Made by a program: the position numbers and the translations under genes
Shown here: positions 3,214-59,547 of the stretch, one piece after another
Layout: each line of letters starts with the position of its first letter
Position numbering within the stretch: position 1 is the first letter of the stretch
Virus record (IMG/VR): IMGVR_UViG_3300047445_000109
Location: 1 to 61,225 of that record
Source of the DNA: a virus
Direction: 5' to 3' (one strand)
DNA length: 61,225 nt
The notes under the pieces: generated by a model
What the model saw: only the letters and a program-made list of their open reading frames with translations
Databases searched by the model: none
What the model was told of the DNA's origin: nothing

Positions 3214-5787
3214 TTACAGTTCTTCGTCGAATTCTCGCGCTCGCTCCTTCACATATTTTCGGATCAATTCCGTGTCAACAACCAGCTCGCCGAGTTCGTT
3301 GTGCCTCACCTCGATCCCGGTCTGGAACCGTTCCGGCAATTTGCTGTAAAGCGCATGGCGCTGGCCGTCGAGCACGCGAATCCGACCCAGCCACTCGAAC
3401 TTTGCACGCGAGAGCATGGACGACATGGCTTTGCCTTTCGGGACTTCCATCGCACGCTCGTGCATGTGATTTTCCAGAATGCCCAGGGACAGCAGTTCTT
3501 CGGAGATCATGAAGTGCACCTTGTCCGCGATCATGTCCTGCAAGTCGATGACGAAGGTGGGCTGTGCTTGCTTGATCATGAACTTGCGAGCTGCGGTTTG
3601 CGGCGCATTGCCCAGCGGGTTGAAGTCTTCTTCCTGCTCGTGGTTCACCAGCCACTTGCGCAGCGCGCCCGCCGACGTTTGGATCGTGCGGTACAACTCG
3701 CTGTAGTAGTTCGGGTTTTCGTCCACGAATGCGGCCAGCTTTTCGCGTGACTGCCACTGCGAGAACAGCACGCAGTAGCGGCGGCCATCATCGTCCAGCG
3801 GCAGCGCGTCCTTGAAGTTCGAGAAGAACAAGTACGACGTGGTGTTCTTCGCCTCGTACACCGGCTTACCCTTCGGGTGCACTTCGATCCTGTCGTTGGT
3901 GATGTAGGGCTTCACGCGGTTGATCACCTCGTACTTGTTGTGGGCCTTGATCAGCCGGACTTCTTCAACGCACGTCAAGCACTGGCCGACTGCCCAATCG
4001 GTGAAGTTGTGTTCCAGGCTGTGCGCGTTCAGGAAGCGAACGTTGGTCTGCCCCATCACCGCTTGCATCAGGAAGCCGAAGAACGACTTACCATCACCCT
4101 CGGTGCCTTGCAACAGGATCGACCAGTTCGCGTGCTTGCCTGGGTTCTGCACGATCCATGAAAGCCAGTCCACGAAGATGCGGCGCTCGCGCTTGTCGGT
4201 AAGCAGGTGCCGCACGTGGTTCTTCACGCGCTCGATGGCCTTCTTGTCACGCGGCGTCAGTTCATCCGGCTCTTCTGGAATAAGGTGAGCCGGGTAGATG
4301 TTTGCATACGTCGCACCATGTTCGCTGAAGATGCCGTCTTCGCCCGGCTCGTAGCGCCGACCCTGGACGGTCTTGATCCTATAGACATTCAGCGCGAGCA
4401 TGGACGCGGTGTTGGACGGCGACGACTTGCCATCCAGGCGGTCTTTCTTCGTCATGGCCTTGCGGTCGTACATCGCGTCGAAGCCCTGCTTGGTCACACT
4501 GATCTTGCGCTCGGTGCAGTAGAAGCGGTCGTCGCTCGTGTCGTACACCCAGGTCGAAACCCAATCCGGCATCCCTTCGTCCGCAGGCGAGTACGCGAGG
4601 CGCTTTTTGATCTCGCCCATCGGAACCTTGGTTCCGTTGATCGAGTTGAAGCGATCACGCGCAAGGTCGCACAAGCTCGAACGCTTCAGCGTGTCGATCT
4701 CCGCTTTGCTCGCTGCGTTGGCCGCCTTGTCCCACGCCGCCACGTCCTTTGCGTTGATGAACATATCCTTCAACTTCAGCAGCAGTGATTGCTCTTCCTC
4801 CTGGGCGGCCTCCTTCGACAACTGCATGATGAGGCGAGCGGTCAGCGGTGCGCGCTTTTTGCCGCCAATACTGAAACCGCCCCAGCGCGAGTCGAGTCCG
4901 TCGCGGTCGTAGTTGTTCGCTTCCTCGGCCCACTCGTGCCACATCTCCAAACCCTTGTCGTCGCCGTGGAACTGGTGGAACAGTGCCATGCCGATCTGAA
5001 TCCAAACATCGTAGTCGTCCGGGTGCGGGATCGACATCAAGCGCTCGCGCAGCTCTTCGTCGCTGATGTCGATGGGTTGTGCGTCTTCGATAAAGGCGTT
5101 GCTGCGGTCGATCTCGCCATCGAATGCGGCGCTCCGCGTCTTGCGGTGCACCTTCCAATCCGATTCCTGGGCGGCGCGTTCCTCGAACCAGTCGATCAGC
5201 TCCGAGCACTGATCCTCGGTCAGCAGCGGCAAGTCTTCCGCGTCGATGGAGCAAGGGCCGCCAACGCTCACCACCTCACCATCGTCATCCAGCTCTTCGG
5301 CGGGCCAGTCATACGGGCGCATCGTGTCAGGGTGAATGTGGTACGCCACGAACTGCTGACCGTCACCGAGAATTTCGATCTGGTGCAGATCGCCCCACTC
5401 GTCGATGTACTTGTTCGTGCGCTTCTTCGTGAACGGCTTATCGGTGCGGAACAGCAGGCCGCGCTTCGGCGCGTTACCGATTCGCAGCGGGCCTTCGCCA
5501 ATCAGCTCGCGCACTTTCTCTTCCGCTTCGAGCGCGATCTGCTCGTTGCGGATGTCCAGGTCGATGAACGGCGTGTTGGTCGTCAGGATGCCCACGCCAT
5601 CGCGGTCATGGCCGTTCTCCAACCACTCCTTCAACTGCTTCTTCGTGGACTTCGCCTTCGACCAATCATCAAACCCTGGTGCCTTTTTGCCGACCGCGAT
5701 TGGAATAATTTCGTAGCCACGCGCAAGCAGCTTGGCACCATAAGCTGCAAGGAAGGCTCCATTCTTTACGTCGATGTCATTGCTCAT
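3214..5787 (-). CDS. Bifunctional primase-polymerase / superfamily 3 helicase
   Basis: The 857-residue replication protein has three recognisable parts. An N-terminal prim-pol domain has the metal-binding D-x-D pair (DLDI near residues 76-79). A PriCT-2-like helical region lies around residues 230-310 (SIPHPDDYDVWIQIGMALF). A C-terminal D5/P4-type SF3 helicase has Walker A GTEGDGKS near residue 560, an acidic Walker B (CVEEV), the polar motif FFSN and the arginine pair DDDGRRY. It probably primes and unwinds at the phage origin, perhaps the adjacent repeat region. The stop overlaps nothing, and its start overlaps the stop of the upstream HTH gene (TAATG). It ends EFDEEL, one of the shared acidic C-termini of this phage. 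Confidence 0.9.
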   Translation of the reverse strand: MSNDIDVKNGAFLAAYGAKLLARGYEIIPIAVGKKAPGFDDWSKAKSTKKQLKEWLENGHDRDGVGILTTNTPFIDLDIRNEQIALEAEEKVRELIGEGPLRIGNAPKRGLLFRTDKPFTKKRTNKYIDEWGDLHQIEILGDGQQFVAYHIHPDTMRPYDWPAEELDDDGEVVSVGGPCSIDAEDLPLLTEDQCSELIDWFEERAAQESDWKVHRKTRSAAFDGEIDRSNAFIEDAQPIDISDEELRERLMSIPHPDDYDVWIQIGMALFHQFHGDDKGLEMWHEWAEEANNYDRDGLDSRWGGFSIGGKKRAPLTARLIMQLSKEAAQEEEQSLLLKLKDMFINAKDVAAWDKAANAASKAEIDTLKRSSLCDLARDRFNSINGTKVPMGEIKKRLAYSPADEGMPDWVSTWVYDTSDDRFYCTERKISVTKQGFDAMYDRKAMTKKDRLDGKSSPSNTASMLALNVYRIKTVQGRRYEPGEDGIFSEHGATYANIYPAHLIPEEPDELTPRDKKAIERVKNHVRHLLTDKRERRIFVDWLSWIVQNPGKHANWSILLQGTEGDGKSFFGFLMQAVMGQTNVRFLNAHSLEHNFTDWAVGQCLTCVEEVRLIKAHNKYEVINRVKPYITNDRIEVHPKGKPVYEAKNTTSYLFFSNFKDALPLDDDGRRYCVLFSQWQSREKLAAFVDENPNYYSELYRTIQTSAGALRKWLVNHEQEEDFNPLGNAPQTAARKFMIKQAQPTFVIDLQDMIADKVHFMISEELLSLGILENHMHERAMEVPKGKAMSSMLSRAKFEWLGRIRVLDGQRHALYSKLPERFQTGIEVRHNELGELVVDTELIRKYVKERAREFDEEL

Positions 5788-6101
5788 TACAGGTCGTCCT
5801 CTTCTTCCTCATACTCCATTGGGTACATCAACTGCTCTTTGCGGATTGCGTCTCGCCCGCACATCGCCTCGATATGTTCGGCGGCACGCTGCGGCACGCG
5901 ACCTTCGCGCACAAAGCGCGAAAGACTGCCGGGGGTGATGCCGACCTTGACCGAGAAGGATTCCAGCGTGCCTTCAGTCGTGTGATCGAGCGCGAGTCGG
6001 CGCAGCATGTAGCTGATGCGCCGCTGCGCGAACAGCGCCTTCTTGTCCGGTCGGTGTCGGTCGTGGTGTTCTTGATGCCTGAAGTGAGGCGGAAATTTCA
6101 T
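5787..6101 (-). CDS. Small helix-turn-helix protein, candidate regulator or origin binder
   Basis: The 104-residue protein contains a Cro/YdaS-like HTH (about residues 46-80: SVKVGITPGSLSRFVREGRVP) after a His-rich basic N-terminus, and ends in an acidic tail EEEEDDL. A good GAAGGAG precedes the ATG. It is co-transcribed with and coupled to the primase-helicase gene, so it may be either an autoregulator of this unit or a replication accessory. A half operator (TTGACAGGG, 6118-6126) lies just upstream. It is one of three candidates for the protein that reads the genome-wide operator. Confidence 0.7.
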   Translation of the reverse strand: MKFPPHFRHQEHHDRHRPDKKALFAQRRISYMLRRLALDHTTEGTLESFSVKVGITPGSLSRFVREGRVPQRAAEHIEAMCGRDAIRKEQLMYPMEYEEEEDDL

Positions 6102-6184
6102 CGGTGGTGCTCCTTCGTTGACAGGGTTTTAGATGGGTTCTGAACGTAGCTCAGAAAAAGTTTGAAGAATTATTGCACAAATGC

Positions 6185-6321: not shown

Positions 6322-6741
6322 ATGAGTATCGAAAAAGCCCTGGCCGATATGACCGCCGCCCTGATCGCCAACACCGAAGCTGTGCAGGCGTTGATCAAAG
6401 CACAAGGCGGCAAGGCACCGGCTGGTAAATCCGCTGACAAGGAAGAAGCCGAAGCCAAGCCAGCCGCAAAAACCACCGCAAAAACCACCGCCAAGACCAC
6501 CGCCAAGTCGGACGACGGCGACGACGAAATCAGCGAAGAAGTGATGAAGGCCGCGCTGAACAAGGTCAAGGAAGAGCTGGGCAGCGACGAAGCCAAGAAG
6601 ATCATCAAGACCGTCGCCAAGGTCGATAAGATGGCCGAAATCCCTGAAGGCAAGCGCGCCGCCATCGTCAAGAAGTGCAAGGAAACCCTGGAATCCGCCG
6701 CTGAAGAAGGCGGCGAAGGCGGCGACGACGACGGCCTGTAA
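6322..6741 (+). CDS. Small Lys/Ala-rich and acidic protein, first gene of replication module
   Basis: I chose ATG 6322, which has GGAG nine bases upstream, over in-frame ATGs at 6307 and 6181 without one. The 139-residue protein has a helical N-terminus, a low-complexity basic linker with AKTT repeated three times (encoded by near-identical 12-bp units), a charged helical middle and an acidic Gly/Asp tail ending GGDDDGL. Position at the head of the replication genes suggests an abundant DNA-replication accessory, but I do not recognise the family. Confidence 0.7.
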   Translation: MSIEKALADMTAALIANTEAVQALIKAQGGKAPAGKSADKEEAEAKPAAKTTAKTTAKTTAKSDDGDDEISEEVMKAALNKVKEELGSDEAKKIIKTVAKVDKMAEIPEGKRAAIVKKCKETLESAAEEGGEGGDDDGL

Positions 6742-6747: not shown

Positions 6748-8052
6748 GTGACCGAGCACACATTCACCCTGGCGCAGATGCGTCAGGCGATGCAGGAGCG
6801 AGTAGAGTCTGGACACTCCGTATTCGCCCCTTCAGCATCGAAGATGTGGCTCAATTGTCCGGGGTCGCTGATCCCCAACCTGTTCGCGCCGGATGATGCT
6901 GGCGAGGACGCGGCCTACGGAACCGTGGGCCACATGGTCGGGGAAACGTGGCTCCGCGATGGCAAGAAGCCCTCTCACCTGCTCGGCACGAAACACCGCG
7001 TTGAAGCAGGTGAGGGGGTTTTTGTCATTGAAGTGGACGACGTGATGATGGAGTACGTTCGGCAGTACGTGAAGTATTGCGAGAACCTGCCCGGTCAGCA
7101 CTTCGTCGAAGTCCGCGTGGACTTCTCTCGGCTCACTCCGATCCCGAACCAGGGCGGCACCGCCGACCATGCAGCGTGCAGTCCCGGCCTGCTGGTCATC
7201 ACCGACCTGAAGATGGGCAAGGGCGTGCGCGTGTATGCGGAGAAGAACACGCAAGCGATGCTGTACGCGCTGGGGTTCTTCTATAAGTGGGACTGGCTGT
7301 ATGGGTTCAAGAAGATCACTGTGCGAATCGCCCAGCCCCGAATGGACAATTGGGACACATGGGACATCAGCCGCGAAGAGCTGCTGGCGTTCGCAGAGGA
7401 TGTGAAGATCAAGGCTGCTGCGGCGTGGGTTCAGAACGCACCGCGCCGTGCCAGCCCTGAAGCGTGCCAGTGGTGCCGCGTGCAGGCCACATGCACCGCG
7501 AAAGCGATTGCCGTGGTCAAGCTGACGGAAGGTATCTTCGGTGACACCACCGAGGTGACGGAGCAGGAATCAAACGACTTGAAAATGGGTCTTCGCTGCT
7601 TCAAGGACTACCCGAAGCCGCCCGTGGACGTGCACACGCTGTCCACCTACGACATGGAGGTGCTGTACAACTGGCGAGGATCGGTTGAGCAGTTCTTCAA
7701 GAAGGTGGGCGAAGAGTTGATGCGCCGCGCACGTAACGGCCACCCGCTCGATATGTACAAGCAGGTTGAGGGCGTCTCGCACAGGGCATGGCGGAACCAG
7801 AAGAAGACGTTGGATCATCTGGTGTCGCTGGGCCTGAAGCGTGAAGACTTGCTCTCCGAAGTCATCCCGTCACCAGCGCAAGTAGAAGACCTCTTGCGCA
7901 AGGCCGGGTACAAGACCAAGGAGCTGCCCGGATTACTGGACGGGTTGTTCTTCAAACCGCCTGGGGGTGCAACCCTGGCGCTGAAGACCGACCGCCGACC
8001 AGCTCTCGGAGACAAGTTTGAAGACGTGTTCTCCGACACAAGCGAACTTTGA
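6748..8052 (+). CDS. DUF2800-type PD-(D/E)XK nuclease with Cas4/AddB-like Fe-S cysteines
   Basis: The 434-residue protein fits the DUF2800 family, RecB-like exonucleases common in phage replication modules. Visible nuclease signature: EVRVDF, GGTADH, then D-x-K in ITDLKMGKG, then Q in NTQAMLYAL. Four cysteines placed as in Cas4 and AddB (C37, then C240-x2-C243-x5-C249) suggest an iron-sulphur cluster. The start is GTG 6748, seven bases after the previous stop, without a clear Shine-Dalgarno; an ATG at 6778 is the alternative. It probably works with the SSB, polymerase and helicase that follow, in end processing or recombination. It ends DTSEL. Confidence 0.85.
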   Translation: MTEHTFTLAQMRQAMQERVESGHSVFAPSASKMWLNCPGSLIPNLFAPDDAGEDAAYGTVGHMVGETWLRDGKKPSHLLGTKHRVEAGEGVFVIEVDDVMMEYVRQYVKYCENLPGQHFVEVRVDFSRLTPIPNQGGTADHAACSPGLLVITDLKMGKGVRVYAEKNTQAMLYALGFFYKWDWLYGFKKITVRIAQPRMDNWDTWDISREELLAFAEDVKIKAAAAWVQNAPRRASPEACQWCRVQATCTAKAIAVVKLTEGIFGDTTEVTEQESNDLKMGLRCFKDYPKPPVDVHTLSTYDMEVLYNWRGSVEQFFKKVGEELMRRARNGHPLDMYKQVEGVSHRAWRNQKKTLDHLVSLGLKREDLLSEVIPSPAQVEDLLRKAGYKTKELPGLLDGLFFKPPGGATLALKTDRRPALGDKFEDVFSDTSEL

Positions 8053-8087: not shown

Positions 8088-8810
8088 ATGGCACTCAAGC
8101 AAATTGACAGCGGCGAAAACTTCAAGATTTATCAGGACGGCGAGAACAAGTACATCCTGATCGAGAACGTCCGCCTCTCCTTCCCGGCCATCGGCCACAT
8201 GAAAGAGAACAAGGACGACGACACCGGCAAGGTGTCGCGCAAGTACGCCGGTGTGCCAATGCTGTCCAAGAAGTCCCACGTTGACGCGAAGGACGCATTC
8301 GTCGGCCTCATGAACGAGCTGATGAAGAAGAACGAAGTGAAGATTCCACCGGAGTACCGCTGCATCAAAAACGGCGACGACACCGACCGCGAAGAGTACG
8401 CGGGCCACTGGATCATCTCCGCTTCCGAATCGCGCCGTCCTACCGCCCGCGACAGCAAGGGTAAGCTGATCCTCGACCCTGAAAAGGTCACGGACGGCGA
8501 TGAAGTCGAAGCGATGCTGGACAAGATCGACGAGACTTTCTTCGCGGGCTGCTACGTCAACGTCCTGCTGCGTCCGTGGTATTTCAACGGCACCGCAAAG
8601 GGCGCGACGAAGAAGTTCCCCAAGCGTATCTGCTGCGGTCTGTCCGCGATCCAGTTCTTCAAGAAGGGCGATCCGTTCAGCCAAGGCCGCATCAACGACT
8701 CCGAAGTCGATTGGACCAGCGCTGGTTCCGACGAGGACGAAGACGACCTGGGCAGCAGCAAGCCGAATCGTAAGAAGGCCACCACGGTCGATGATGACGA
8801 TGAGCTGTAA
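8088..8810 (+). CDS. Enc34-type single-stranded DNA-binding protein (DUF2815)
   Basis: The 240-residue protein matches the Enc34 SSB family: an OB-fold core with the opening pattern ILIENVRLSFPAI, a middle segment PPEYRCIKNGD and VNVLLRPWYFNG. The C-terminal tail (about residues 205-240) is disordered and highly acidic, ending DDDDEL. Acidic tails are usual in phage SSBs such as T7 gp2.5 and bind polymerase and helicase; here the final DEL is shared with many unrelated proteins of this phage. AAAAGGAAA precedes the ATG. Confidence 0.88.
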   Translation: MALKQIDSGENFKIYQDGENKYILIENVRLSFPAIGHMKENKDDDTGKVSRKYAGVPMLSKKSHVDAKDAFVGLMNELMKKNEVKIPPEYRCIKNGDDTDREEYAGHWIISASESRRPTARDSKGKLILDPEKVTDGDEVEAMLDKIDETFFAGCYVNVLLRPWYFNGTAKGATKKFPKRICCGLSAIQFFKKGDPFSQGRINDSEVDWTSAGSDEDEDDLGSSKPNRKKATTVDDDDEL

Positions 8811-11077: not shown

Positions 11078-11351
11078 CATGCGCCGCGACCTTGAGGTGA
11101 GCCTTGAGGAAGCGGTGATCGACTATGCGCACAAGCGCGGCTGGTGGGAAGGGAAGTTTGTCTGCCCAGGCCAAGTCGGCGTGCCGGATCGCATCTTCAT
11201 CCGGCGCGGGCGCGTGATCTTTATCGAGCTGAAGAAGCTCGGCGAGAAGCCGAAGCCGAAGCAGCTCTCGAAGCACGCGGAGATGCGCAAGTACGGCGCA
11301 GAGGTGTTCTGGACTGACAATCTTGAGGAAGCAATGAGGATTTTGAAATGA
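11061..11351 (+). CDS. VRR-NUC domain nuclease
   Basis: The 96-residue protein is almost entirely a VRR-NUC (virus-type replication-repair nuclease) domain. Its catalytic set is visible: E in SLEEAVIDYA, GVPDRIFI and the E-x-K in FIELKKLG, with a conserved Q near QLSKHAEMRKYGAEV. ATG 11061 has GAGG nine bases upstream and overlaps the polymerase by 17 bp; ATG 11079 is possible but has no ribosome site. The 3' end overlaps the helicase start (ATGA). Such stand-alone VRR-NUC proteins are commonly paired with SNF2-like helicases in phages and probably process branched DNA. Confidence 0.9.
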   Translation: MLPLPNMRRDLEVSLEEAVIDYAHKRGWWEGKFVCPGQVGVPDRIFIRRGRVIFIELKKLGEKPKPKQLSKHAEMRKYGAEVFWTDNLEEAMRILK

Positions 11352-13030
11352 GCCACCGTGATCCGTTTTTGTACGACATCCTGGCGCGCTTCGACGAGGT
11401 AAAGCTGAAGCGCGAGCAGATGCACGGCTACCAGGGGGAAGCGTACAACTTCCTGCGCGATAACCGCTTCAGCGGCCTCTTCATCGACATGGGCCTGGGG
11501 AAGACCGTCAGCGCTGGCACGCTGATCGCCGACATCGTGCACGGCCTGCTGGACGGCGAAGAACTGGCCGATGGCGAGAAGGTGCTGGTGATCGGCCCGC
11601 TGCGCGTGGCGACCGCGACATGGCCCAACGAGTTCGACAAGTGGGAGCATCTGGCCTCCATGAACTACAAGGTCGTGCACGTGGACGACGACGACCCGCG
11701 CCTGAAGCAAGCGTACAAGGCGGCGTGGGCCGATGGCCTCGAACGCCAGATGTTCACCAGCGAGCGCCAGAAGTACGCCAACACCGCGCAGGCCGCGTGC
11801 AAGGAGCGCCTGCGACAAGAGGCGGCCACCGACAAGGCCACCGTGCACTTCATCAGCCGCGACTGGATCGAGTGGCTGGTGCAGTTCTACCTGAAGCGCG
11901 GCAAAGGCTGGCCGTACCGCTGCGTCATCATCGACGAGTCGAGCGCGTTCAAGGATCACAACACGAACCGCTTCAAGGCGCTGCAAAGCGTGGTCGATTT
12001 TCCAGGCAACGTCACGCGCTGTCACATCCTCACCGCGACGCCCGCCGCCGAGAGCTACATGAACCTGTTCTCGCAGATTTACCTGCTGGACAAGGGCAAG
12101 CGCCTGGGCAAAGAGCTGTCGATGTATCAGCGCCGCTACTTCACCGAGAACAAGTACACGCGCAAGTGGGAGCTGCGCCCGGACGGCGAGAAGGACATCC
12201 TGGCGAAGATCGCCGACATCTGCCTCGTGATGAAGCGCGAGGATTACCTGCCGATGGTGCCGCCGCGCTTCATCGAGCGCCCGGTGTACATGACGCCCGA
12301 CCAGATGGCGCTCTATCGCAAGATGGAGAAGGACATGGTGGTCACGCTCGCGGACGGCACCGAGGTGGCGGCCGAGTCGGCGGCGGCCTTGTCGGCGAAG
12401 CTGCTGCAAATGGCGTCCGGCGTGCTGTACAACACGACCATGGAGCCGGGCCTGGAAGAAGAGGACGACCACGCCAAGGTGCTGAAGATTCACCGCATCC
12501 ACGAGCACAAGATCGAGATGCTGAAGGAGATCGTGGACGAGGCGCAGGGCAAGCCGATCCTGCTGGGCTATCACCATCGCTCGTCGAAGGAGCGCCTGAA
12601 GAAAGCCTTCCCGAACCTCGTCTTCATGGACAAGACCGGCAAGTGCATCAAGAAGTGGAACAAGGGTCAGATACCGATCCTGGCGATGCACCCGGCGTCG
12701 GGCGGCCACGGCTTGAACCTGCAAGACGGCGGCCACATCGTCGTCTTCTTCGACATCCCGTGGTCGTTGGAGCTGTACCAGCAGTTCATTGGCCGCCTGG
12801 ATCGCCAGGGCCAGCTCGAACGTGTGACGGTCTTCCACATCGTCTGTAAAGGCACCCTGGACGAAGCCGTGATCGAAGCGCTGACGGCCAAGGACGACGC
12901 GCAGATGATGCTGTTTAACATCCTGCGGCGAATGCGGAAGAAGCTGGTGAAGCTGATGAAGGACGCGAAAGGTAAGGCCATGGACTTCGATACTCGCGTG
13001 GAGGCGCTGCTGGCCGACGAAGTTCTGTAA
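11348..13030 (+). CDS. SNF2/SF2-type DNA helicase
   Basis: The 560-residue protein has the superfamily 2 motifs in order: Walker A DMGLGKT (about residue 49), DES box IIDESSAFKD (about 195), TATPA (motif III, about 233), and in the C-terminal lobe SGGHGLNLQ and motif VI QFIGRLDRQGQ. The SNF2-type domain of this length acts as a DNA translocase remodelling replication forks. It overlaps the VRR-NUC gene by four bases, suggesting they act together. It is the last gene of the replication unit, ending ADEVL. Confidence 0.9.
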   Translation: MSHRDPFLYDILARFDEVKLKREQMHGYQGEAYNFLRDNRFSGLFIDMGLGKTVSAGTLIADIVHGLLDGEELADGEKVLVIGPLRVATATWPNEFDKWEHLASMNYKVVHVDDDDPRLKQAYKAAWADGLERQMFTSERQKYANTAQAACKERLRQEAATDKATVHFISRDWIEWLVQFYLKRGKGWPYRCVIIDESSAFKDHNTNRFKALQSVVDFPGNVTRCHILTATPAAESYMNLFSQIYLLDKGKRLGKELSMYQRRYFTENKYTRKWELRPDGEKDILAKIADICLVMKREDYLPMVPPRFIERPVYMTPDQMALYRKMEKDMVVTLADGTEVAAESAAALSAKLLQMASGVLYNTTMEPGLEEEDDHAKVLKIHRIHEHKIEMLKEIVDEAQGKPILLGYHHRSSKERLKKAFPNLVFMDKTGKCIKKWNKGQIPILAMHPASGGHGLNLQDGGHIVVFFDIPWSLELYQQFIGRLDRQGQLERVTVFHIVCKGTLDEAVIEALTAKDDAQMMLFNILRRMRKKLVKLMKDAKGKAMDFDTRVEALLADEVL

Positions 13031-13099: not shown

Positions 13100-13312
13100 A
13101 TGGCGAACAAGATAATAGAAAGGTTTGAAGTGCACGTCGGGCATCGTGCACAAGAAGCCTGCCTACTAATCGGCATGGCCTATCCCACCTACGCCGCGTA
13201 CCGCAATGGTTCACGCGCCCTGCCGATCTACCACCACAACCACATCAAAGACATCATGCGCCTGCCCAGCCGGGAGCTGCGCGCATTGATCGCTGAAAGG
13301 ATTGGCGAATGA
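13100..13312 (+). CDS. Small HTH-like regulatory protein, 70 aa
   Basis: The basic 70-residue protein has a Cro-like helix-turn-helix appearance (about residues 17-45: AQEACLLIGMAYPTYAAYRNGSR). It stands first behind the operator promoter and terminator at 13036-13099, the usual place for a regulator or for a small terminase accessory. It overlaps the next gene by four bases (ATGA). It is a candidate reader of the ACAGGG operator. Translation from read-through mRNA should be suppressed because its ribosome site is in the hairpin. Confidence 0.6.
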   Translation: MANKIIERFEVHVGHRAQEACLLIGMAYPTYAAYRNGSRALPIYHHNHIKDIMRLPSRELRALIAERIGE

Positions 13313-13947
13313 AGCCACGTGAACACATCACTCGTCGGAAGAACGCCCACGCCGACGAAACCAGCAACGTGATCATGTATGAGGGCGCGAACCTGTCGCA
13401 GCTCTCCGTGCTGTTCCGCATGGATCACCGCGTCCTCGTCGAGAAGTTGCACCAATGTCCGCCGACCGGCGTGCGTAACGGCACCTCGATCTGGCGCATC
13501 GACGTGGCCGCCCCGTACCTCGTGCGCCCGATGTTCGACATCGAAGAGTATGTGCGCAAGATGAACCCCACCGACCTGCCGAAGATGCTGTCGAAGGAGT
13601 TCTGGTCGGCGCAGAAGATCAAGCAGGAGGTGCAGGAACGCGAAGGCAACCTGTGGCAGACCGAGCGCGTCGTGCGCGCCATCGGCGGCGTGATGAAGAT
13701 CGTGAAGAACTCCGTGCGACTGTTCGTGGACGCCGTGGATCGCCAGTCCGAACTGAACGAAGCCCAGCGCCGCATCCTGAAGAACCTGGGCGATGGCCTG
13801 CTGAACGAGGCGTACCGCAACGTGGTCAAGGAATTCAGCGAGAAGCCGACCAACCCGGAGCAGCAGGAAGCCGTGGCCGAAATGATCTACGAGGTGAAGC
13901 AAGGCCCAGCGCCCGTAGTTGAAGAGGGAGACGACGATGAGCTTTGA
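13309..13947 (+). CDS. Terminase small subunit (Nu1/DUF1441-like)
   Basis: The 212-residue protein directly upstream of the large terminase has an N-terminal winged-HTH-like DNA-reading segment (NLSQLSVLFRMDHRVLVEKL, then GTSIWRID) like DUF1441/Nu1 small subunits, and a helical C-terminal half for oligomerisation and contact with the large subunit. It would recognise the packaging site. The C-terminus is acidic, ending GDDDEL; part of this tail overlaps the start of the large-subunit gene by 11 bp. Confidence 0.8.
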   Translation: MKPREHITRRKNAHADETSNVIMYEGANLSQLSVLFRMDHRVLVEKLHQCPPTGVRNGTSIWRIDVAAPYLVRPMFDIEEYVRKMNPTDLPKMLSKEFWSAQKIKQEVQEREGNLWQTERVVRAIGGVMKIVKNSVRLFVDAVDRQSELNEAQRRILKNLGDGLLNEAYRNVVKEFSEKPTNPEQQEAVAEMIYEVKQGPAPVVEEGDDDEL

Positions 13948-20948: not shown

Positions 20949-21275
20949 ATGCCTAAACGTATCGCAGTCAATACCATCATCCTCCACCGTGCAGGCGTAG
21001 GCCGCGTCCGCGTCCCTGCCGGTAAGCTGTTCGACTTCACCGCCGCCGAGCTGGAAACCCTGAAGGAAACCGCGCCGGATTCGATCCGCACCCCGCGCAA
21101 CGAAGTCGAGTCCGTGCAGGAAGTCGAAGTCCCGAAAAGCCAAGCCAACCAGGGCGGCAAGGGCGGCAAGGGCGGCAAGCAACAGCAGTCGGCCAAGGTC
21201 GAATCGAAACCTGAAGGCGACGGCGAAGGCGCTGATGCCGGTGCCGGTGCTGGCGGCGCAGAAGACGAGCTGTAA
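20949..21275 (+). CDS. Small neck-region protein with acidic DEL tail
   Basis: The 108-residue protein has a short folded N-terminal part (about residues 1-50) and a long low-complexity tail of Gly/Lys then Ala/Gly/Glu (KGGKGGKQQQ, then GADAGAGAGG), ending AEDEL. Position after the capsid gene suggests head completion or a virion accessory. It is the only head-region protein carrying the shared C-terminal tail. CAAGGAGAG precedes the ATG. Confidence 0.65.
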   Translation: MPKRIAVNTIILHRAGVGRVRVPAGKLFDFTAAELETLKETAPDSIRTPRNEVESVQEVEVPKSQANQGGKGGKGGKQQQSAKVESKPEGDGEGADAGAGAGGAEDEL

Positions 21276-48130: not shown

Positions 48131-48163
48131 AGGCCCGGTTCATCGCCGGGCCTCTTTTTTTTT
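48131..48163 (+). terminator. Strong intrinsic terminator ending the late plus-strand region
   Basis: AGGCCCGG (48131-48138) pairs with CCGGGCCT (48146-48153) over a seven-base loop, then CTTTTTTTTT. The T tract runs into the stop codon of the convergent minus-strand gene (48162-48164). Confidence 0.92.
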
Positions 48164-48470
48164 ACAGCTCGTCGTCCAGGGTGATCGACGTTGCGGCCAT
48201 GATCCCGGCCTTGTGGACTAGACCGCATCGGAAGTCAGCGAAGTTCGTGATCTTCTGGTGGGCGACCATCAACTCACTGCCGGTGCGCGCCATCAGGATC
48301 ACCTGCACACCGGCCACCTCAATCGCGGTCACGACCCCTTTGTAGCAGGCCGCCCCCTTGTCCACCTTCAGCACGTACTCGCGTGGCATCTTTAGCTTCC
48401 TTCCCATCTTCTGTTGGCGGCGGCGCTCTTCTTCCGGCTGCTGGTCGAGCAGCTCATCCTTCCAGTCCAT
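48162..48470 (-). CDS. Hypothetical protein, last gene of minus-strand early operon
   Basis: The 102-residue protein has a charged N-terminus (EEERRRQQKMGRKLKMPR) followed by a beta-rich SH3/KOW-like segment (REYVLKVDKGAACYKGVVTAIEVAGVQVILMAR). It ends TLDDEL, although it has no downstream gene whose ribosome site that sequence could serve. It overlaps the upstream gene by 17 bp. Function unknown. Confidence 0.68.
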   Translation of the reverse strand: MDWKDELLDQQPEEERRRQQKMGRKLKMPREYVLKVDKGAACYKGVVTAIEVAGVQVILMARTGSELMVAHQKITNFADFRCGLVHKAGIMAATSITLDDEL

Positions 48471-48870: not shown

Positions 48871-50006
48871 TTGCCCACCGCCGCGTGGTGCTTCTTCAGT
48901 GCGGTGCTGGCCTGGGCCACCATGCGCTTCAGCGTGTTCTTCTGGTGCTCCCAATAGGCGTGATCGTCGCTGGTGCTGGTCGCTTCGCACACGGCCTGCA
49001 TGGCGCTGATGGCGCGCATGAAGTCGCCCTGGTGCGACACGACATCACGCAGGCAGTTCAGCGCGTCGTCGTTCAGGCCGTCAGGCTTCACCTCGAACTT
49101 GCGTTCGCCCATCGCCTTGCGCACCGCGTCGATCATGGCCTGCGGCGCTTCGCCAGCGTCGATGCGGATCACGTTCACTTCGCCCACCGGCACGCCCAGC
49201 TTCGACGCGAAGAACTTGGCCGCGTCCAGGGCTTGCGCGTCTTCGTCCGGCAGCTTGATATCGTCGGCGGTCAAGTGCTCTTTCAGGTTGCCGCACTCTT
49301 CGACGGCCACGGCGCGGGCCACGGTGCCGATGGTAAGCATCAACGACTTGGTGAAGTCCTTGCGGAATTCGGCGCTGCCGATCAGCTTCTCGCCGTGGGC
49401 CATGTCGAGCATCTGGCCGAACTCGCGCTCCACGGTTTCGTACACCTGCTTCATGAACGGCGTGATGATTTTAGGCTCCGCGACCTCCACGCGGCGCGTC
49501 GGCGCTGCGCTCATGCTGCTGGCGACCCACTTGCTTTCGCTGTCGGTGTGCACGGCGTCGAGGATGGCGTGGTGCGCGTTCAGCCAGTCCTGCACCAGAT
49601 GGCCGACCGCGCTGCCCAGCATCCAGCCGCGAGTGCGACCGTTCTGGAAGATGACGTTCAGCTTCACGCTGCTTTCGTCGTCGCCGGGGTGCATGTCCAC
49701 GCGCATCACGTCCTGGGCGTACAGGCGCACGTCGTTGCCGTTGCTGGCGGTGAAGTCGATAAAGTCGGAGAGCTTGTTCATGGTCTTGTCCTTGAAGTGT
49801 TTGTTGAAGTGTTCGATGAGGGCGTGCGCGTTCGCGGCGTCGGTGTTGAAGTGCAGCGGTTCGATGTGGTCGCCGCCATTCAACCTGATGATCAGGGTGA
49901 CACCGCCGCCCGATGGCGGACGCTTGCTGCGACGGATCGACTTTGCAAGGCGCAGATCGAGCAAGACGCTGCCCGCATAGGTCGGCAGGGGATAGATGTG
50001 CTTCAC
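48867..50006 (-). CDS. Hypothetical protein, 379 aa, possible internal second start
   Basis: The GTG at 50006 overlaps the upstream stop (GTGA) and opens a 379-residue frame. Residues 1-75 are a small basic beta-rich part. At residue 76 an ATG (49781) has AAGGA upstream and could start a separate 304-residue protein, MNKLSDFIDF onwards. There is no stop between the parts, so they may be made both as a fusion and as a shorter form. The large part is helical and soluble with no motif I can name. Confidence 0.6.
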   Translation of the reverse strand: MKHIYPLPTYAGSVLLDLRLAKSIRRSKRPPSGGGVTLIIRLNGGDHIEPLHFNTDAANAHALIEHFNKHFKDKTMNKLSDFIDFTASNGNDVRLYAQDVMRVDMHPGDDESSVKLNVIFQNGRTRGWMLGSAVGHLVQDWLNAHHAILDAVHTDSESKWVASSMSAAPTRRVEVAEPKIITPFMKQVYETVEREFGQMLDMAHGEKLIGSAEFRKDFTKSLMLTIGTVARAVAVEECGNLKEHLTADDIKLPDEDAQALDAAKFFASKLGVPVGEVNVIRIDAGEAPQAMIDAVRKAMGERKFEVKPDGLNDDALNCLRDVVSHQGDFMRAISAMQAVCEATSTSDDHAYWEHQKNTLKRMVAQASTALKKHHAAVGK

Positions 50007-50509
50007 AGTTCGTCCTCGTCTGCGATGAGTTGTTTGAGCGGCTTGTCCATGGACAGCTTCTCCATGCAGTTCGCCACGCGGTTGCGCTTCGGCCAGCCGC
50101 TCGGCAGCTTCTCGCCGACCCAGGTGATCTCCCACTCGTCGCCGTCCAGGCCGTCTTCGTGCTTGATGGTCATGGTTCCCCATTCCACGGCCAGGATGCC
50201 GAATGCGCCGATGACCGGGACACCGGCTTCGAGCAGGCGTGCGGTGAGGTAGTTGCCGCTGTTGACCGGGCTGTACTCGGCCAGTTTGCCGGTGCGCGGC
50301 ATGACGCCGACCAGCTCGTCGCGGGTGAAGGTCTTCTTGATGGTGACTTCCTTTGCCATGCTCTGTTCCTTTTTGAATTGTCGCTCGAACTGTGCAACGC
50401 CAGTGACGACATCGCACAGTCCAAACAGCACGGCCTGATCCGCCTCGGCGTCGTCGAACGTCTCGAAGAGACAGTCGCTCTCCGGGTGAAAGATCAGGTG
50501 CCGGGCCAT
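50003..50509 (-). CDS. Hypothetical protein, 168 aa (118 aa from internal start)
   Basis: ATG 50509 follows the upstream stop by one base but has little ribosome site. A second in-frame ATG at 50359 has AAAAGGAAC and would give a 118-residue protein beginning MAKEVTIKKTFTRDEL. Either is possible. The protein is mixed alpha/beta, possibly a small metabolic or DNA-binding protein, and ends ADEDEL. It is coupled to the next gene by GTGA. Confidence 0.62.
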   Translation of the reverse strand: MARHLIFHPESDCLFETFDDAEADQAVLFGLCDVVTGVAQFERQFKKEQSMAKEVTIKKTFTRDELVGVMPRTGKLAEYSPVNSGNYLTARLLEAGVPVIGAFGILAVEWGTMTIKHEDGLDGDEWEITWVGEKLPSGWPKRNRVANCMEKLSMDKPLKQLIADEDEL

Positions 50510-50510
50510 G

Positions 50511-51132: not shown

Positions 51133-51348
51133 TTACAACTCGTCGTCGATGCCCAGGCGGGCTTCCAGTTCGGCGATCTTTGCTCGTTGGCGCTTGAGCA
51201 GATTGCCGCGCTGGATCGCCTTTCGTTCTGCGGCCCACATGCTGTCTTGCAGGTGGTGGAAGTGGGCCTTGTAGCTATCAGCGTGATCCAGGGCGACCTT
51301 CAGCAAACGGCGTAGGCGTGCGACTTCGGTTTCTTCAGAGTTCGTCAT
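51133..51348 (-). CDS. Small coiled-coil protein, 71 aa, acidic DEL end
   Basis: I chose ATG 51348 (GAGGAAGG upstream) inside the end of the previous gene. The helical protein has heptad-like runs (VARLRRLLKVALDHADSYKAHFHHL and LLKRQRAKIAELEARL) and ends GIDDEL. Function unknown. A spacer with the degenerate operator separates it from the next gene. Confidence 0.62.
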   Translation of the reverse strand: MTNSEETEVARLRRLLKVALDHADSYKAHFHHLQDSMWAAERKAIQRGNLLKRQRAKIAELEARLGIDDEL

Positions 51349-51565
51349 ACGGGCCTTCCTCGCGCCAGATGCGGACACCGTGGCACAGGTAGATTTCGTC
51401 ATACTCAGTCTCGACGAACTTTGCGCCCACGCCGAGCTTCTTCAGTGGGCGGCGCAGGAACTCGACATCCTCACGGGTGACACCTTCGACGAAGAATGAC
51501 GCACCGATGCGCATAGCGCGGATTTTGGCGACGAGTGATTGGGTCGCTTGTGAAGTACGCGGCAT
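51335..51565 (-). CDS. Small hypothetical protein, 76 aa, acidic DEL end
   Basis: A perfect AAGGAGG precedes ATG 51565. It is a compact alpha/beta protein (SFFVEGVTREDVEFLRRPLKKLG) ending GPYDEL; the nucleotides of this ending also hold the start of the next gene. Such small proteins of similar pattern are frequent in phage early operons and have no known function. Confidence 0.65.
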   Translation of the reverse strand: MPRTSQATQSLVAKIRAMRIGASFFVEGVTREDVEFLRRPLKKLGVGAKFVETEYDEIYLCHGVRIWREEGPYDEL

Positions 51566-51577: not shown

Positions 51578-52543
51578 TTACAGTTCGTCGTCGGCGGATT
51601 CCCCGCCCTCGGACATGGCTTCTCGCAGCAGATCGACGATCACGCCGATGTACTTTGCGTAGAGCCAGTAGGTAGCGTGCGCGTCTTCGTGCGTGCGCAG
51701 CTCGTCTTTGTCGGCCAGCTTCAGACCCTTCACGACCCACTTCTCGGTGAGCGTGAACTGCGCTGCGTCCTTGCCTTCCACCGTGTCGAACATGGTCATG
51801 CCGATCTCGGTGGCGTGGTAGCTGTTGTCGAAGAGCTTCTGCACGTCGGCGTGCGACAGGTCACGATCCTTGATGCGGGCCGTGGCCTTGTCGTCGCGCT
51901 TGAACACGCCGGACGTGCCAGCGTCGAAGCGGTAGGCATAGTCTTCGTCGTCAAAGTGGAACACGCCATCCTTCGCAAGCTGGGTCATGTGGAAGTTGAT
52001 GTGCTCGAAGTCGAAGTAGTGCGGCTCGAAGTCCACCTTGCGCGCCTGGGCGAGCTGGTTGAAGATCGAGTGGGCCTGCTCCATCTTCTTCGCGCTGGTC
52101 GTGCAGAAGACGATCTTGTCCTTGTACACGAGGATCGGCATGATCGTGTCGCGCACAAACGCCTTCGGCAGCAGGTACGCTTCCGCCTCGTCGCGGGTCT
52201 GCGCGTATTCCTGCTTGGTCGGTGCGCGCCCGGTCTGGTCGAACAGCTTCTTCAGCCGCTTCGCCAGCTCCTTGTCACGCACTGCGCCCGGCAGAATCTT
52301 CTCGCTGAACTTCACGAACATCAGGTGGGCGGTGCCGTCCAGGCTGTGCACGAAGCTGCCCTCTTCAAACGGTTCGACAAGGCCGTAGCTGATCCATGCG
52401 TCAGCGCCCGGCTCGATGTGCTTGAAGCCCGCGATGATCTCGGAAGTCTTCTCCGGGTTCTTCACGGCCTTCCCGCACCACGTATGCAGCGCCGCGCCAA
52501 TGGCAAACGGCATTGCTGCTTTGATTCCCTTCAACTTAGCCAT
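51578..52543 (-). CDS. RdgC-like DNA-binding protein
   Basis: The 321-residue protein shows the RdgC pattern: VKFSEKILPGAVRDKELAKRLKKL, then GRAPTKQEYAQTRDEAEAYLLPKAFVR, IVFCTTSAKKMEQAHSIFNQL. RdgC forms a ring on duplex DNA and modulates RecA; a phage copy may protect phage DNA or inhibit host recombination. The length is close to the bacterial family. The start overlaps the upstream stop (TAATG) and the protein ends SADDEL. Confidence 0.8.
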   Translation of the reverse strand: MAKLKGIKAAMPFAIGAALHTWCGKAVKNPEKTSEIIAGFKHIEPGADAWISYGLVEPFEEGSFVHSLDGTAHLMFVKFSEKILPGAVRDKELAKRLKKLFDQTGRAPTKQEYAQTRDEAEAYLLPKAFVRDTIMPILVYKDKIVFCTTSAKKMEQAHSIFNQLAQARKVDFEPHYFDFEHINFHMTQLAKDGVFHFDDEDYAYRFDAGTSGVFKRDDKATARIKDRDLSHADVQKLFDNSYHATEIGMTMFDTVEGKDAAQFTLTEKWVVKGLKLADKDELRTHEDAHATYWLYAKYIGVIVDLLREAMSEGGESADDEL

Positions 52544-52722
52544 TACAGTTCCTCTTCTTCGCTGGCCTGCGGTGGATGATGGATGTCCGGGTTGCGGCTC
52601 GTGTACGGGGTCACGATGTCGCCAGCGCGGGTGCGCTTCTCGGCCACCTCTTTCTTGAACGTCAGATAGATCGCCCCGCCGTTCTTCGGCTCGATGATGT
52701 AGCCCAGGATCGCGCCGGTCAT
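52543..52722 (-). CDS. Small hypothetical protein, 59 aa, acidic end
   Basis: I chose ATG 52722, preceded by GAAGGAGAAG, in place of a GTG at 52782 without a ribosome site. The small beta-rich protein (GAILGYIIEPKNGGAIYLTFKKEVA) ends SEEEEL; that codon run also supplies GAGGA as ribosome site for the RdgC-like gene. A microprotein gene lies in the upstream gap and overlaps this start. Confidence 0.6.
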   Translation of the reverse strand: MTGAILGYIIEPKNGGAIYLTFKKEVAEKRTRAGDIVTPYTSRNPDIHHPPQASEEEEL

Positions 52723-53280: not shown

Positions 53281-53309
53281 AGTATAGCTACAGGGTTTTT
53301 CCCTGTCAA
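53281..53309 (-). promoter_or_regulatory. Near-consensus minus-strand promoter with perfect operator
   Basis: On the minus strand TTGACA (53309-53304) and TATACT (53286-53281) are 17 bp apart. The palindrome ACAGGGTTTTTCCCTGT occupies 53290-53306. This is the strongest promoter seen on the minus strand and serves the genes from 53253 to 48162. Confidence 0.88.
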
Positions 53310-53319
53310 CACATTTACA

Positions 53320-53613
53320 TTACAGCTCTTCCTGATCCGTGGTGTAGCCGCGCCAGTCGAAGCGCTCGCGGAACAGCACCTCTTCCCCGGTGCCGCCGAA
53401 GAACTGATCGTTCGGCGGACGCTTGATCTCGTCGTCCAGGTCGGGGTCGTATTCCAGCGGGTGCGACCAGCCCAGGTGCTTGTCGAACCAGCGGAAGTGC
53501 GACGCCGGTTCGTCCTCGGTCTTACCGTAGGGCCACGCGATGCGGCACTGATAAGGCCCGGCATGGGCGGGAGTTCCGCCAGTACCGGGAAGCCATGCGG
53601 TGAATTGCTTCAT
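53320..53613 (-). CDS. Hypothetical protein, 97 aa, acidic EEL end
   Basis: The protein is rich in aromatic residues, Pro and Asp (WPYGKTEDEPASHFRWFDKHLGWSHPLEYDP). GGAGTG lies before the ATG, which overlaps the upstream stop (ATGA). It ends TDQEEL. No family is recognised. Confidence 0.62.
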   Translation of the reverse strand: MKQFTAWLPGTGGTPAHAGPYQCRIAWPYGKTEDEPASHFRWFDKHLGWSHPLEYDPDLDDEIKRPPNDQFFGGTGEEVLFRERFDWRGYTTDQEEL

Positions 53614-53945
53614 TTAGTTTTCACTCCAAAGAAGGCCAGGGGGATATCCTTGTACTCGCGCCGTGGCCGCACAGGCGGCGGTGGCGGGGCATTCGGATCA
53701 GGCCCGTGTTTATAGGTAGCGCCGCTGACGACGCCGTTCTTCCACTTCGCGCTGCCGTGGTAGTGGACGCGCCTGTCGGCCAACATCACCTTCAGGTAGC
53801 GGCTCACTGTGCCTACCGAGCACCCCAGCTCGTCGGCGATTTCTTTTTGGGTGCAGCCAACCACGCGGAACCTGCGAGACTTCATCAGGTCGATGATGTC
53901 CTGCGTGACCTTGCCTGCACCCCGGTCGGTCTTCCGTTCCACCAT
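53610..53945 (-). CDS. Winged-helix/HTH DNA-binding protein
   Basis: The 111-residue protein contains a clear HTH (about residues 31-53, CTQKEIADELGCSVGTVSRYL) followed by a wing-like segment (RRVHYHGSAKWKNG) and a Pro-rich basic C-terminus. It may regulate phage or host genes and is one of three candidate readers of the ACAGGG operator. It lies just upstream of the promoter at 53281. Coupled to its neighbours by short overlaps. Confidence 0.72.
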   Translation of the reverse strand: MVERKTDRGAGKVTQDIIDLMKSRRFRVVGCTQKEIADELGCSVGTVSRYLKVMLADRRVHYHGSAKWKNGVVSGATYKHGPDPNAPPPPPVRPRREYKDIPLAFFGVKTK

Positions 53946-56429: not shown

Positions 56430-56431
56430 GA

Positions 56432-57260: not shown

Positions 57261-58179
57261 CTTCCACAGTCTCCGGTTTAGGGAACACGATCTGGTCGCG
57301 CAGGCGGTTGAACTCGGACTTGCCGTACTCGATCTGCTGCTTGCGCTCTTCCCAGCGCTCGCCGTCAATCGAGAGTTCGATGTGGTTCTCCACGAGGTTG
57401 TTCAGGTATTGCGGGCGCAGCGCATCCAGCTCCCACGACTTCGTGCCGAACTTCTTGGCGTAGTCCTTGAAGCGCGAGTCGGTGGACTTGGCCGGGTTCG
57501 GCGGCGGCTTCTGTGCGTTGATCTGATCCATGTTCAACGCGATGCGGTCGAACTGCACGTAGTCGCCACGCTCGTCGCTGCGGCAGAACATATTCACGCC
57601 TTCTTCCAGATCGCGGCTCATGTCGATGCCGGACGGGTCATGGTCGCCCAGGTGCAGGATCGTGACCGACTGGCCCGCGTCCATGGCCGGGATCACCATG
57701 CGTTCGCAGAACTCGCGGACAACCGTGCGCGAAGGATAGCCGCGTGCGGCCAGCAGCGGCACGTCGTAGCTGTGGCAGGTGCGTTGCAGCACGCCGACCA
57801 GGGCTTCCTTCTCGACGATGACGAACACGCGCTCTGGCTGGTTCTCCCACAAGTCCATGTGGAAGGTGCGGGCGCAGATGTGCATCAGCTCTTGCGGGTT
57901 CTCCCACGACGAGCGCGTGATGAACTCGCGGGTGCGATCTTCAATCGCGTCCCAATCCATCAGGCCAGCGAGGCGGGCGTCGTTGCACACGCTGGTGATG
58001 CGCTTGTACGACTGCTCGGTGTTTTCGATCTTGGCCGCCGCGACGAGCTGGTAGTAGAGCTGGCGCACGGTCAGCACAAAGCCCTGCTGCTGGTAGTCGC
58101 GGATGATGCGGTTCATCTCTTCGATCAGCACCAGCGTGTCGGCGCGGAAGTTGAAGTCCTTGTAGTGTTCGCGGGCCAT
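57253..58179 (-). CDS. Toprim-domain protein related to Spo11/topoisomerase VI A
   Basis: The 308-residue protein has an N-terminal winged-helix-like part (TVRQLYYQLVAAAKIEN, about residues 37-53) and a Toprim domain with the catalytic Glu (FVIVEKEALVGVL, about 118-130) and the D-x-D motif (LHLGDHDPSGIDM, about 175-187). This is the arrangement of Topo VI A/Spo11, but the Tyr-bearing 5Y-CAP domain seems shortened; the Tyr residues in the LYYQL segment are candidates. It could nick or relax DNA or be a stand-alone nuclease. AAGGAGCG upstream lies within the preceding gene's end. Confidence 0.75.
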   Translation of the reverse strand: MAREHYKDFNFRADTLVLIEEMNRIIRDYQQQGFVLTVRQLYYQLVAAAKIENTEQSYKRITSVCNDARLAGLMDWDAIEDRTREFITRSSWENPQELMHICARTFHMDLWENQPERVFVIVEKEALVGVLQRTCHSYDVPLLAARGYPSRTVVREFCERMVIPAMDAGQSVTILHLGDHDPSGIDMSRDLEEGVNMFCRSDERGDYVQFDRIALNMDQINAQKPPPNPAKSTDSRFKDYAKKFGTKSWELDALRPQYLNNLVENHIELSIDGERWEERKQQIEYGKSEFNRLRDQIVFPKPETVEDE

Positions 58180-58181
58180 GC

Positions 58182-58391
58182 TTAACGCTCCTTATTCCAC
58201 AATGCGTTGATCTTGTTCATCGCGGCGTCCAGGGCCACGATGGCGTCTTTCTGTGCTTCGGTTCCGACCATGTACTCCGGGCAGGAGTCGATAGCGGTGA
58301 TGAGTTCACCCTTCACGCGCACGGCGAAGCGGTCGTAGTTTGCGACGCGCATCTCCGTGGCCGGGCGGTTGATGAGGGAAGTCCGTGCCAT
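58182..58391 (-). CDS. Small hypothetical protein, 69 aa
   Basis: The start is preceded by AAAAGGCG. Soluble, with a beta-rich N-terminal half (NYDRFAVRVKGELITAID) and a helical end (DAAMNKINALWNKER). Its last codons contain the ribosome site of the Toprim gene. Function unknown. Confidence 0.6.
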   Translation of the reverse strand: MARTSLINRPATEMRVANYDRFAVRVKGELITAIDSCPEYMVGTEAQKDAIVALDAAMNKINALWNKER

Positions 58392-58400
58392 GATCGCCTT

Positions 58401-58685
58401 TTAGAGTTGTTCAAATTTGGCGAGCTTGCGCTTGAACTCGTCGCGCTGCACTTCGGCGAGGTTCGCACGCTGGTTCAAACTGTCGATGCGGCTGCGGGCT
58501 TCGGCCAGCTCTTTGCGCAGCTTGTCGGACTCGCTGCTGTCGAGCCATTCGACGAACTTGCCCAGCACGTCCTTCGCCTGATCCTTCTCGGTGTCGAAGC
58601 GCTCGTCGCTGTGCGTGTCGTCACGGCTTTCCACGAAGCGCTCGATGTCGGCCTTCAGGTGGCCCATGGTGTATTCGCCGCTCAT
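58401..58685 (-). CDS. Small coiled-coil protein, 94 aa
   Basis: I chose ATG 58685, with AAGGGG upstream; an ATG three bases earlier is equally possible. The C-terminal half is a long coiled coil (KLRKELAEARSRIDSLNQRANLAEVQRDEFKRKL). The end, KFEQL, resembles the shared acidic tail only loosely. Function unknown. Confidence 0.6.
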   Translation of the reverse strand: MSGEYTMGHLKADIERFVESRDDTHSDERFDTEKDQAKDVLGKFVEWLDSSESDKLRKELAEARSRIDSLNQRANLAEVQRDEFKRKLAKFEQL

Positions 58686-58927
58686 CATTCTGCCCCTTCC
58701 CTGATCTTGTTCATGCGGTTGCGGATGCTGTTCTGTTCCAGCGCCAGGACTTCTTCGTCGATCTTGACTTGGCGGCGCTGCTGCAAGGCGATGAATGCGT
58801 CGTTGTGCGCCGAGCGCTCGGACAGTTCGATGTTCTCGGCGCGCTTCTCCAGAATGCGCTTGTAGCATTCGGTGCGTTCCAGGCGCAGCTCGCACAGGCG
58901 CAGGCGGTCGTTGTTATCGCGGCTCAT
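58685..58927 (-). CDS. Small helical charged protein, 80 aa
   Basis: ATG 58927 overlaps the upstream stop (TGATG). The protein is one long charged helix by appearance (LRLCELRLERTECYKRILEKRAENIELSE), likely a coiled coil. With its neighbours it forms a run of three helical small proteins that may interact. Confidence 0.6.
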   Translation of the reverse strand: MSRDNNDRLRLCELRLERTECYKRILEKRAENIELSERSAHNDAFIALQQRRQVKIDEEVLALEQNSIRNRMNKIREGAE

Positions 58928-59361
58928 CACAGCATCCCCATCTGCGACAGTGCGCGCCACACGTTCAGGGTGATCAGCTTCGGCGTCGGCATCTCGTCAC
59001 GGGTCGGAATGCGCACGACCGGCTTGGCCTGCTTCTTCGCCTTGCCGTTCGAGATCACGCGGTAGCGGCGGTCGCCGTTGTCGGCCATGGAGAACGCCAG
59101 GGCGCGTGCTGCCGCCAGCTTGGCCTTCTCGGTGTCCACCGTGTACGCGCCGTCTTCGAGGCGCACGAATTCCGGCGAGATGATGCGACCTTGCGGGTCA
59201 AGGAAGCACGCGCCGTACATGCGCTCTTCTTCGCGGATTTCCGCCTCGCTGGCTGGATTGACTCCCCTGAGCAAAATCACAGGCAGCTCGCCCGTGACGG
59301 GAATCTGGTGGACGTTGACCTTCAGGGTGTCGATGCCTTCGACGGTTTGCTTCAGTTCCAT
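58927..59361 (-). CDS. Hypothetical protein, 144 aa
   Basis: ATG 59361 follows directly on the upstream stop; the preceding codons AAGGAGGAACTG provide its ribosome site. The protein is alpha/beta (VNVHQIPVTGELPVILLRGVN, then a basic segment NGKAKKQAKPVVRIP). No family recognised. Confidence 0.62.
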   Translation of the reverse strand: MELKQTVEGIDTLKVNVHQIPVTGELPVILLRGVNPASEAEIREEERMYGACFLDPQGRIISPEFVRLEDGAYTVDTEKAKLAAARALAFSMADNGDRRYRVISNGKAKKQAKPVVRIPTRDEMPTPKLITLNVWRALSQMGML

Positions 59362-59547
59362 TTACAGTTCCTCCTTCGCCATTTTGGTGATCTTGCTGGT
59401 CAGCTCGCGCTCCTGGGCTTTCAGCTTGCCGATGGTGCCGCGAACAGCGCGCATCTCTTTGTCCATGCCCTTCACGGTTTCTTCCTTGTTCTTGATGTCG
59501 GCCAGCAGGTTCGTGCGTTGCTGGCGCAGTGCTGCGATAGTGGTCAT
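59362..59547 (-). CDS. Small coiled-coil protein, 61 aa, EEL end
   Basis: I chose ATG 59547 with AAGGAGAA upstream. An all-helical protein (LRQQRTNLLADIKNKEETVKGMDKEMRAV) ending AKEEL. The terminal codons double as the Shine-Dalgarno of the next gene. Function unknown. Confidence 0.6.
   Translation of the reverse strand: MTTIAALRQQRTNLLADIKNKEETVKGMDKEMRAVRGTIGKLKAQERELTSKITKMAKEEL

Follow-up and report, generated by a model that had tools for sequence, protein, structure and literature searches.

An acidic C-terminal tail shared by DNA-processing proteins of phages near the Casjensviridae, with a last residue that differs between genomes

The stretch of DNA considered here, referred to as the window, is the IMG/VR virus record IMGVR_UViG_3300047445_000109 at its full length of 61,225 bases. 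Its primase, DUF2800 exonuclease, and Enc34-type single-stranded DNA-binding protein (SSB) put it near phages of the Casjensviridae such as SS2019XI, phiAxp-2, AH2, BcepNazgul, and Chi. A series of unrelated proteins encoded in the window end in the same short acidic tail closed by a leucine, [DE][DE]L. When the C-termini of related phages were listed, tails were found to be equally frequent in many of them, with other endings; the last residue is mostly uniform inside one genome and differs from genome to genome.

Tailed proteins of the window and its relatives

Genes were called with a program made for this analysis, which combines a coding score for open reading frames with ribosome sites and dynamic programming, and which gave 68 genes in the window. 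The C-termini of such calls are robust, the starts less so. The comparison set comprised 17 named phages, about 40 IMG/VR genomes or large fragments, and some 150 shorter loci, many of them metagenomic.

Thirteen of the 68 called proteins end in [DE][DE]L. The number expected is 0.08 from amino-acid composition (binomial P 3e-25), 0.06 on average and 1 at most when the same motif is sought at 35 internal offsets (P 3e-27), and 0.34, with a maximum of 3, in 500 shuffles of the last 12 residues (P 3e-17). As real-proteome controls, AhaSv, Suzuki, G021, and G022 gave no [DE][DE]L tail by the same procedure, while G023, G028, and G031 gave one each. Since several relatives have none or one under the same caller, the count in the window is not a caller artefact. 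At least six such tails were found in 33 of the 43 near-complete genomes of the group. The comparison with shuffled and related proteomes that had been proposed in the first-pass annotation of this DNA thus puts the frequency far above that of matched genomes, and the excess over chance which it had claimed (13/68 against 0.06-0.34 expected) is confirmed and is stronger than first stated.

All twelve [DE]EL endings listed in that annotation were found at the stop codons it gave, as were the close variants EDDL (5787), TSEL (6748), and DDGL (6322-6741). Some start codons were called differently (e.g., 50003-50359, 51133-51348), which leaves the gene ends unaffected. The carriers, with the share of their family that is tailed, are as follows:

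3214..5787, minus strand: primase-polymerase (Prim-Pol, PriCT-2, DUF5906), tail FDEEL; 35/56 family members tailed
5787..6101, minus strand: small protein upstream of the primase (Cro/HTH annotation in relatives), tail EEDDL; weak member, 3/48 of the family tailed
6322..6741, plus strand: F24 (phrog_7721), tail DDDGL; 39/56 family members tailed
6790..8052, plus strand: DUF2800 PD-(D/E)XK-type exonuclease, tail SDTSEL; 24/57 family members with strict tails
8088..8810, plus strand: T7 gp2.5/Enc34-type SSB (DUF2815/Enc34_ssDNA-bd), tail DDDDEL; 45/56 family members tailed
11348..13030, plus strand: SNF2-type helicase, ending ADEVL (variant tail); 22/57 family members tailed
13309..13947, plus strand: terminase small subunit (TerS), tail GDDDEL; 35/42 family members tailed
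20949..21275, plus strand: DUF7443 protein directly after the major capsid gene, tail GAEDEL; 39/44 family members tailed
48162..48470, minus strand: small protein, tail LDDEL; 8/8 family members tailed
50003..50359, minus strand: small protein, tail DEDEL; 15/19 of the family tailed, with DDEF in G004 and GL in BcepNazgul
51133..51348, minus strand: small protein, tail IDDEL; 7/7 family members tailed
51335..51565, minus strand: small protein (phrog_7200), tail PYDEL; 16/26 family members tailed
51578..52543, minus strand: RdgC-like protein, tail ADDEL; 31/33 family members tailed
52543..52722, minus strand: small protein, tail EEEEL; 7/7 family members tailed
53320..53613, minus strand: small protein, tail DQEEL; relatives end in DQDEL or D[QP]xPL
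59362..59547, minus strand: small coiled-coil-like protein, ending KEEL; weak member, family of two (one orthologue)

Three of these carriers, those at 59362, 5787, and 53320, are individually weak; the tail of the first overlaps the ribosome site of the next gene, and four relatives of the last end in D/E-P-L. For the remaining claimed carriers, and for those at 6322-6741 and 6790-8052, tails recur among the family members in relatives. The SSB matches the family profile PF10991 (E 8.6e-16), and its predicted fold is matched by Foldseek to 5odj (E 7.8e-16) and to T7 gp2.5, 1je5 (E 1.9e-5). F24 is predicted by AlphaFold2 to consist of an N-terminal helix, a disordered linker, and a three-helix domain, and a fold search with this model gave no significant match. 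A sequence search for a solved structure of the DUF2800 exonuclease found none.

In the near-complete genomes 35 of 752 virion-region genes are tailed, against 373 of 2538 other genes. The DUF7443 family beside the capsid gene accounts for 32 of these 35, and the rest are 3 of about 720 genes; the claim that virion proteins lack the tail save for the gene at 20949 therefore holds. Carriers outside the window include a 3'-5' exonuclease, a ParB-like protein, Dam and N6/N4 DNA methylases, and a RusA resolvase, and a PAPS-reductase-like protein of Chi is also tailed. The carriers of known function are therefore close to a DNA-transaction proteome, and tails are concentrated in DNA-processing and early-region proteins, much as had been noted at first.

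The last residue in different genomes

Leucine closes the tails in the window and in most relatives. Valine is the ending in Chi-like, Klebsiella, and Providencia phages; Chi FSL SP-030, Klebsiella phage N137, and Redjac have it (DDDEV or similar) on the SSB, exonuclease, TerS, RdgC, DUF7443 protein, and others. R16L mainly has isoleucine, which A18P4 and L296 carry on all six families sampled. Phenylalanine ends the primase, exonuclease, helicase, TerS, RdgC, and others in G004, and F tails are also present in L287. Several proteins of SNUABM08 and G024 end in DDxL, where the residue before the leucine is not acidic. BcepNazgul at first appeared to be tail-less, but 9 of its 64 proteins end in -GL, compared with 0.5 at internal offsets; in G021 the same is true of 10 of 81 proteins (0.3 at internal offsets). 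The unrelated families that switch together are the SSB, primase-polymerase, exonuclease, SNF2 helicase, RdgC, TerS, F24, DUF7443, and several small proteins. The check on orthologues proposed earlier thus shows a tail that is kept in relatives, its last residue varying by genome. Together with the variation of synonymous codons in the tails and the frequency far above matched genomes, this bears out the view that selection acts on the peptide.

The concerted change was evaluated on a tree of 50 genomes, built from ten virion and packaging proteins, which for the most part lack tails. A last-residue substitution rate was fitted for each of 12 families, and independent evolution was simulated 1000 times. 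Agreement of the last residue within a genome has a kappa of 0.54, against a simulated maximum of 0.11. Among pairs involving a non-L residue agreement is 0.40 (simulated maximum 0.11), and four or more identical non-L tails occur in eight genomes, where the simulations gave four such genomes at most. Three tails or more are present in 74 of 97 non-redundant genomes or loci, and the share of a genome's tails with a common last residue averages 86%.

Individual phages display the same behavior. In Aeromonas phage A18P4 (NC_052984, annotated genes) the TerS, helicase, SSB, exonuclease, gp70, and primase all end in an acidic run and isoleucine, while the same families end in leucine in AVP3, likewise an Aeromonas phage. 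The A18P4-type primase shares only 26% identity with its counterpart in an L-coded relative, most neighboring proteins being 49-61% and F24 36% identical, and this divergent primase nonetheless bears the I tail of its own genome. The closely similar Pseudomonas phages L115 (SS2019XI) and L113/L114 encode non-homologous DNA polymerases at the same place. The family-B-like polymerase of this exchange bears the tail of its genome, IEGEDL, and the other tails are nearly unchanged. A family-A polymerase was never seen with a tail, while the family-B type often carries that of its genome.

Two further observations concern the endings themselves. The F24 homologue of BcepNazgul (NC_005091.2, about 53305-53829, minus strand) seems to be frameshifted near its 3' end, either through an error of sequencing or in the phage itself, and the alternative frame ends in GSDGL, which is the genome's own code. 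A variant with tryptophan (xVWDD, WDDEE, EEW) often ends the exonuclease, helicase, and primase in L283-L291, G025, G034, and Chi-like genomes, and is possibly a second form of the tail.

A probable docking tag and its alternatives

The terminal residue changes together on a dozen unrelated proteins, and the simplest account of this is a common reader with a changed pocket. Since phages of one host genus differ in code, the reader is more likely to be phage-encoded. We consider it probable that the tail is a C-terminal docking tag read by a common hub, itself probably a phage product. At a flexible C-terminus, such a tag would present two to four acidic residues closed by a hydrophobic one, and one common pocket would read it and gather DNA-transaction proteins at the phage DNA. 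The set gathered would include the SSB, primase, exonuclease, helicase, RdgC, and small terminase, and in relatives methyltransferases, a resolvase, and a ParB-like protein; the purpose of the tag would be recruitment and hand-off. From the sequences we infer one main receptor pocket, whose change would drive the concerted switch. The docking tag for one partner that had been suggested at first is thus supported, its functional part by inference only, while a host protein as that partner is argued against.

The tag might indeed be meant for a host protein, for example a replication or repair factor. The tails of bacterial SSBs bind many host partners, and the many early-region carriers would encounter host factors. 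However, A18P4 and AVP3 differ in code (I and L) within the same host genus, and a conserved host pocket hardly explains switches of a whole set to F, V, I, or GL, which makes a host reader unlikely. We give the same low rating to a stability signal, by which the tail would shield proteins from a protease or expose them to it (C-degron control). What ClpXP and Tsp-type proteases recognize depends on C-terminal residues, and the many carriers from early regions could be cleared later; but host proteases should not require leucine in one phage and isoleucine in another of the same host genus, no protease was noticed among the annotated universal families, and a concerted residue change requires a specific reader. 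Protection from host proteases as a plain explanation, put forward with the first observation, does not agree with a code that changes in concert from genome to genome.

Acidic tails could also mimic DNA and damp non-specific DNA binding within each protein, with no shared receptor. Most carriers of known function bind DNA, and the Enc34 SSB is reported to bind double-stranded DNA once its tail is removed (PMC5686142). Charge alone, however, does not explain why the terminal hydrophobic residue is fixed or why it changes in concert throughout a genome, and we find this account quite improbable. It is very improbable that the tail is a cargo signal packing early proteins into the virion head for injection: the small terminase and the DUF7443 protein beside the capsid gene are tailed, but the other virion-region families are almost devoid of tails, and the SSB and primase are not known as virion cargo. 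That the tails merely reflect ribosome-binding sites, or some other nucleic-acid signal where genes end, can be dismissed almost entirely, as the first-pass annotation had argued. The window genes at 52543, 59362, and 5787 do run into the ribosome site of the gene that follows, but 37% of tail genes have a start codon in the range -10..+12 around their stop, compared with 50% of other genes; the codons also vary synonymously, and the code changes by residue.

Returning to the docking tag, the chances are about evenly balanced that it amounts to a private address code, with one phage-encoded hub gathering most of the DNA-processing proteome. If so, tag and hub would co-evolve, the whole set, newly acquired proteins included, would switch specificity together, and neighboring phages would be mutually insulated. 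Mismatched tags may then restrict gene exchange between phages. One short peptide could assemble the whole DNA-processing machinery of a phage, and the code may predict which proteins of unknown function act at phage DNA; for several of the small ones this is a first functional hint. A linear motif that switches in concert in ten or more proteins is also a clear test case for the co-evolution of motif and receptor.

Acidic docking tails are known from other systems. The C-terminal tip of bacterial SSB (DDDIPF), an acidic run followed by a terminal hydrophobic residue, is a docking peptide in DNA metabolism. The composition is alike, but there one carrier is read by many partners, while here many proteins carry the tail, and none of the window carriers has the Pro-Phe end of the D-D-D-[IL]-P-F tip. 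In T7, basic patches of the polymerase gp5 are bound by the C-terminal tails of gp4 (PMC12593628). T7 gp2.5 and gp4 both end in DF, a tail found on 2 of 52 T7 proteins, so that its SSB and primase-helicase, like the SSB and primase here, share a disordered acidic tail closed by a hydrophobic residue; the window SSB is also predicted to have the gp2.5/Enc34 fold. The present phages differ from T7 in having up to 18 tailed proteins per genome, RdgC, TerS, nucleases, and methylases among them, and in a terminal residue that is usually L, V, or I (L in the window, Phe only in some relatives); the polymerase as receptor is unsupported here. The Enc34 ORF6 SSB (PDB 5ODJ), of the same family and fold as the window SSB, also has an acidic tail, WDEDEV according to the cloning primer (PMC5686142). 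The available part of that article reports that the tail sits in the groove of a neighboring molecule in the crystal and that its removal relaxes the specificity for single-stranded DNA; it deals with the SSB tail alone, and sharing with other phage proteins is not described there (PMC5686142). The eukaryotic KDEL retrieval signal is likewise a short acidic-Leu C-terminal tag on unrelated proteins, but the machinery is not common and the resemblance is one of principle only. What appears to be new is the extension of acidic docking tails to most of the DNA-processing proteins of a phage, under a code that is specific to a lineage and switches as a whole; neither this nor an earlier account of a shared tail in these phages was found in the open-licence papers searched.

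Candidates for the reader

Several results weigh against the docking-tag account. In G004 and G017 the tails of the SSB, F24, and DUF7443 protein (I or L) differ from those of the primase, TerS, and RdgC (F), which may mean two readers or one tolerant reader. The DUF7443 protein, encoded in the virion gene block, is an exception among the carriers. With few independent code switches in the sample for receptor mapping, no single protein stood out in a scan for convergence between G004 and G017, or in a phylogeny-aware mutual-information scan of 79 genomes; helicase columns were frequent among the top of the latter, largely via one V-coded clade. The AlphaFold2 model of the SSB, in which the tail has low confidence (pLDDT 51), displays no sign of the tail docking in cis, and leads toward a co-evolving receptor pocket failed or did not replicate.

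One candidate was the exonuclease, where the best of 2843 columns was E327 (A in all six F-tailed genomes). An equal score is reached by 9% of random clade sets, and the lead was broken by new loci (L284 has R with F, L295 A with I, and L287 D with F). The exchange of polymerases argues against the DNA polymerase as receptor, as polA and polB replace each other with the code unchanged (L113 vs. L115).

The SSB, helicase, exonuclease, primase, F24, and DUF7609 protein are each found in at least 32 of the 33 tail-rich genomes, the SSB of G014 being missed by the gene caller and recovered by search. The tail-poor AhaSv/Suzuki clade still has the SSB, primase, exonuclease, helicase, and DUF7609 protein, and AhaSv has an F24-like protein without a tail at the position of F24. 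Among these universal candidates the core of the SSB is tentatively put forward as the most likely receptor, since the SSB almost always bears a tail, also in genomes with few other tailed proteins, and since the tail of its crystallised relative from Enc34 enters the groove of a neighboring molecule. The DUF7609 protein, listed below, is a further candidate partner; it usually ends in VTRxx, and is tailed in the Chi, Klebsiella, Redjac, and R16L phages.

59564-59917: DUF7609 protein, found in each of the 33 tail-rich genomes

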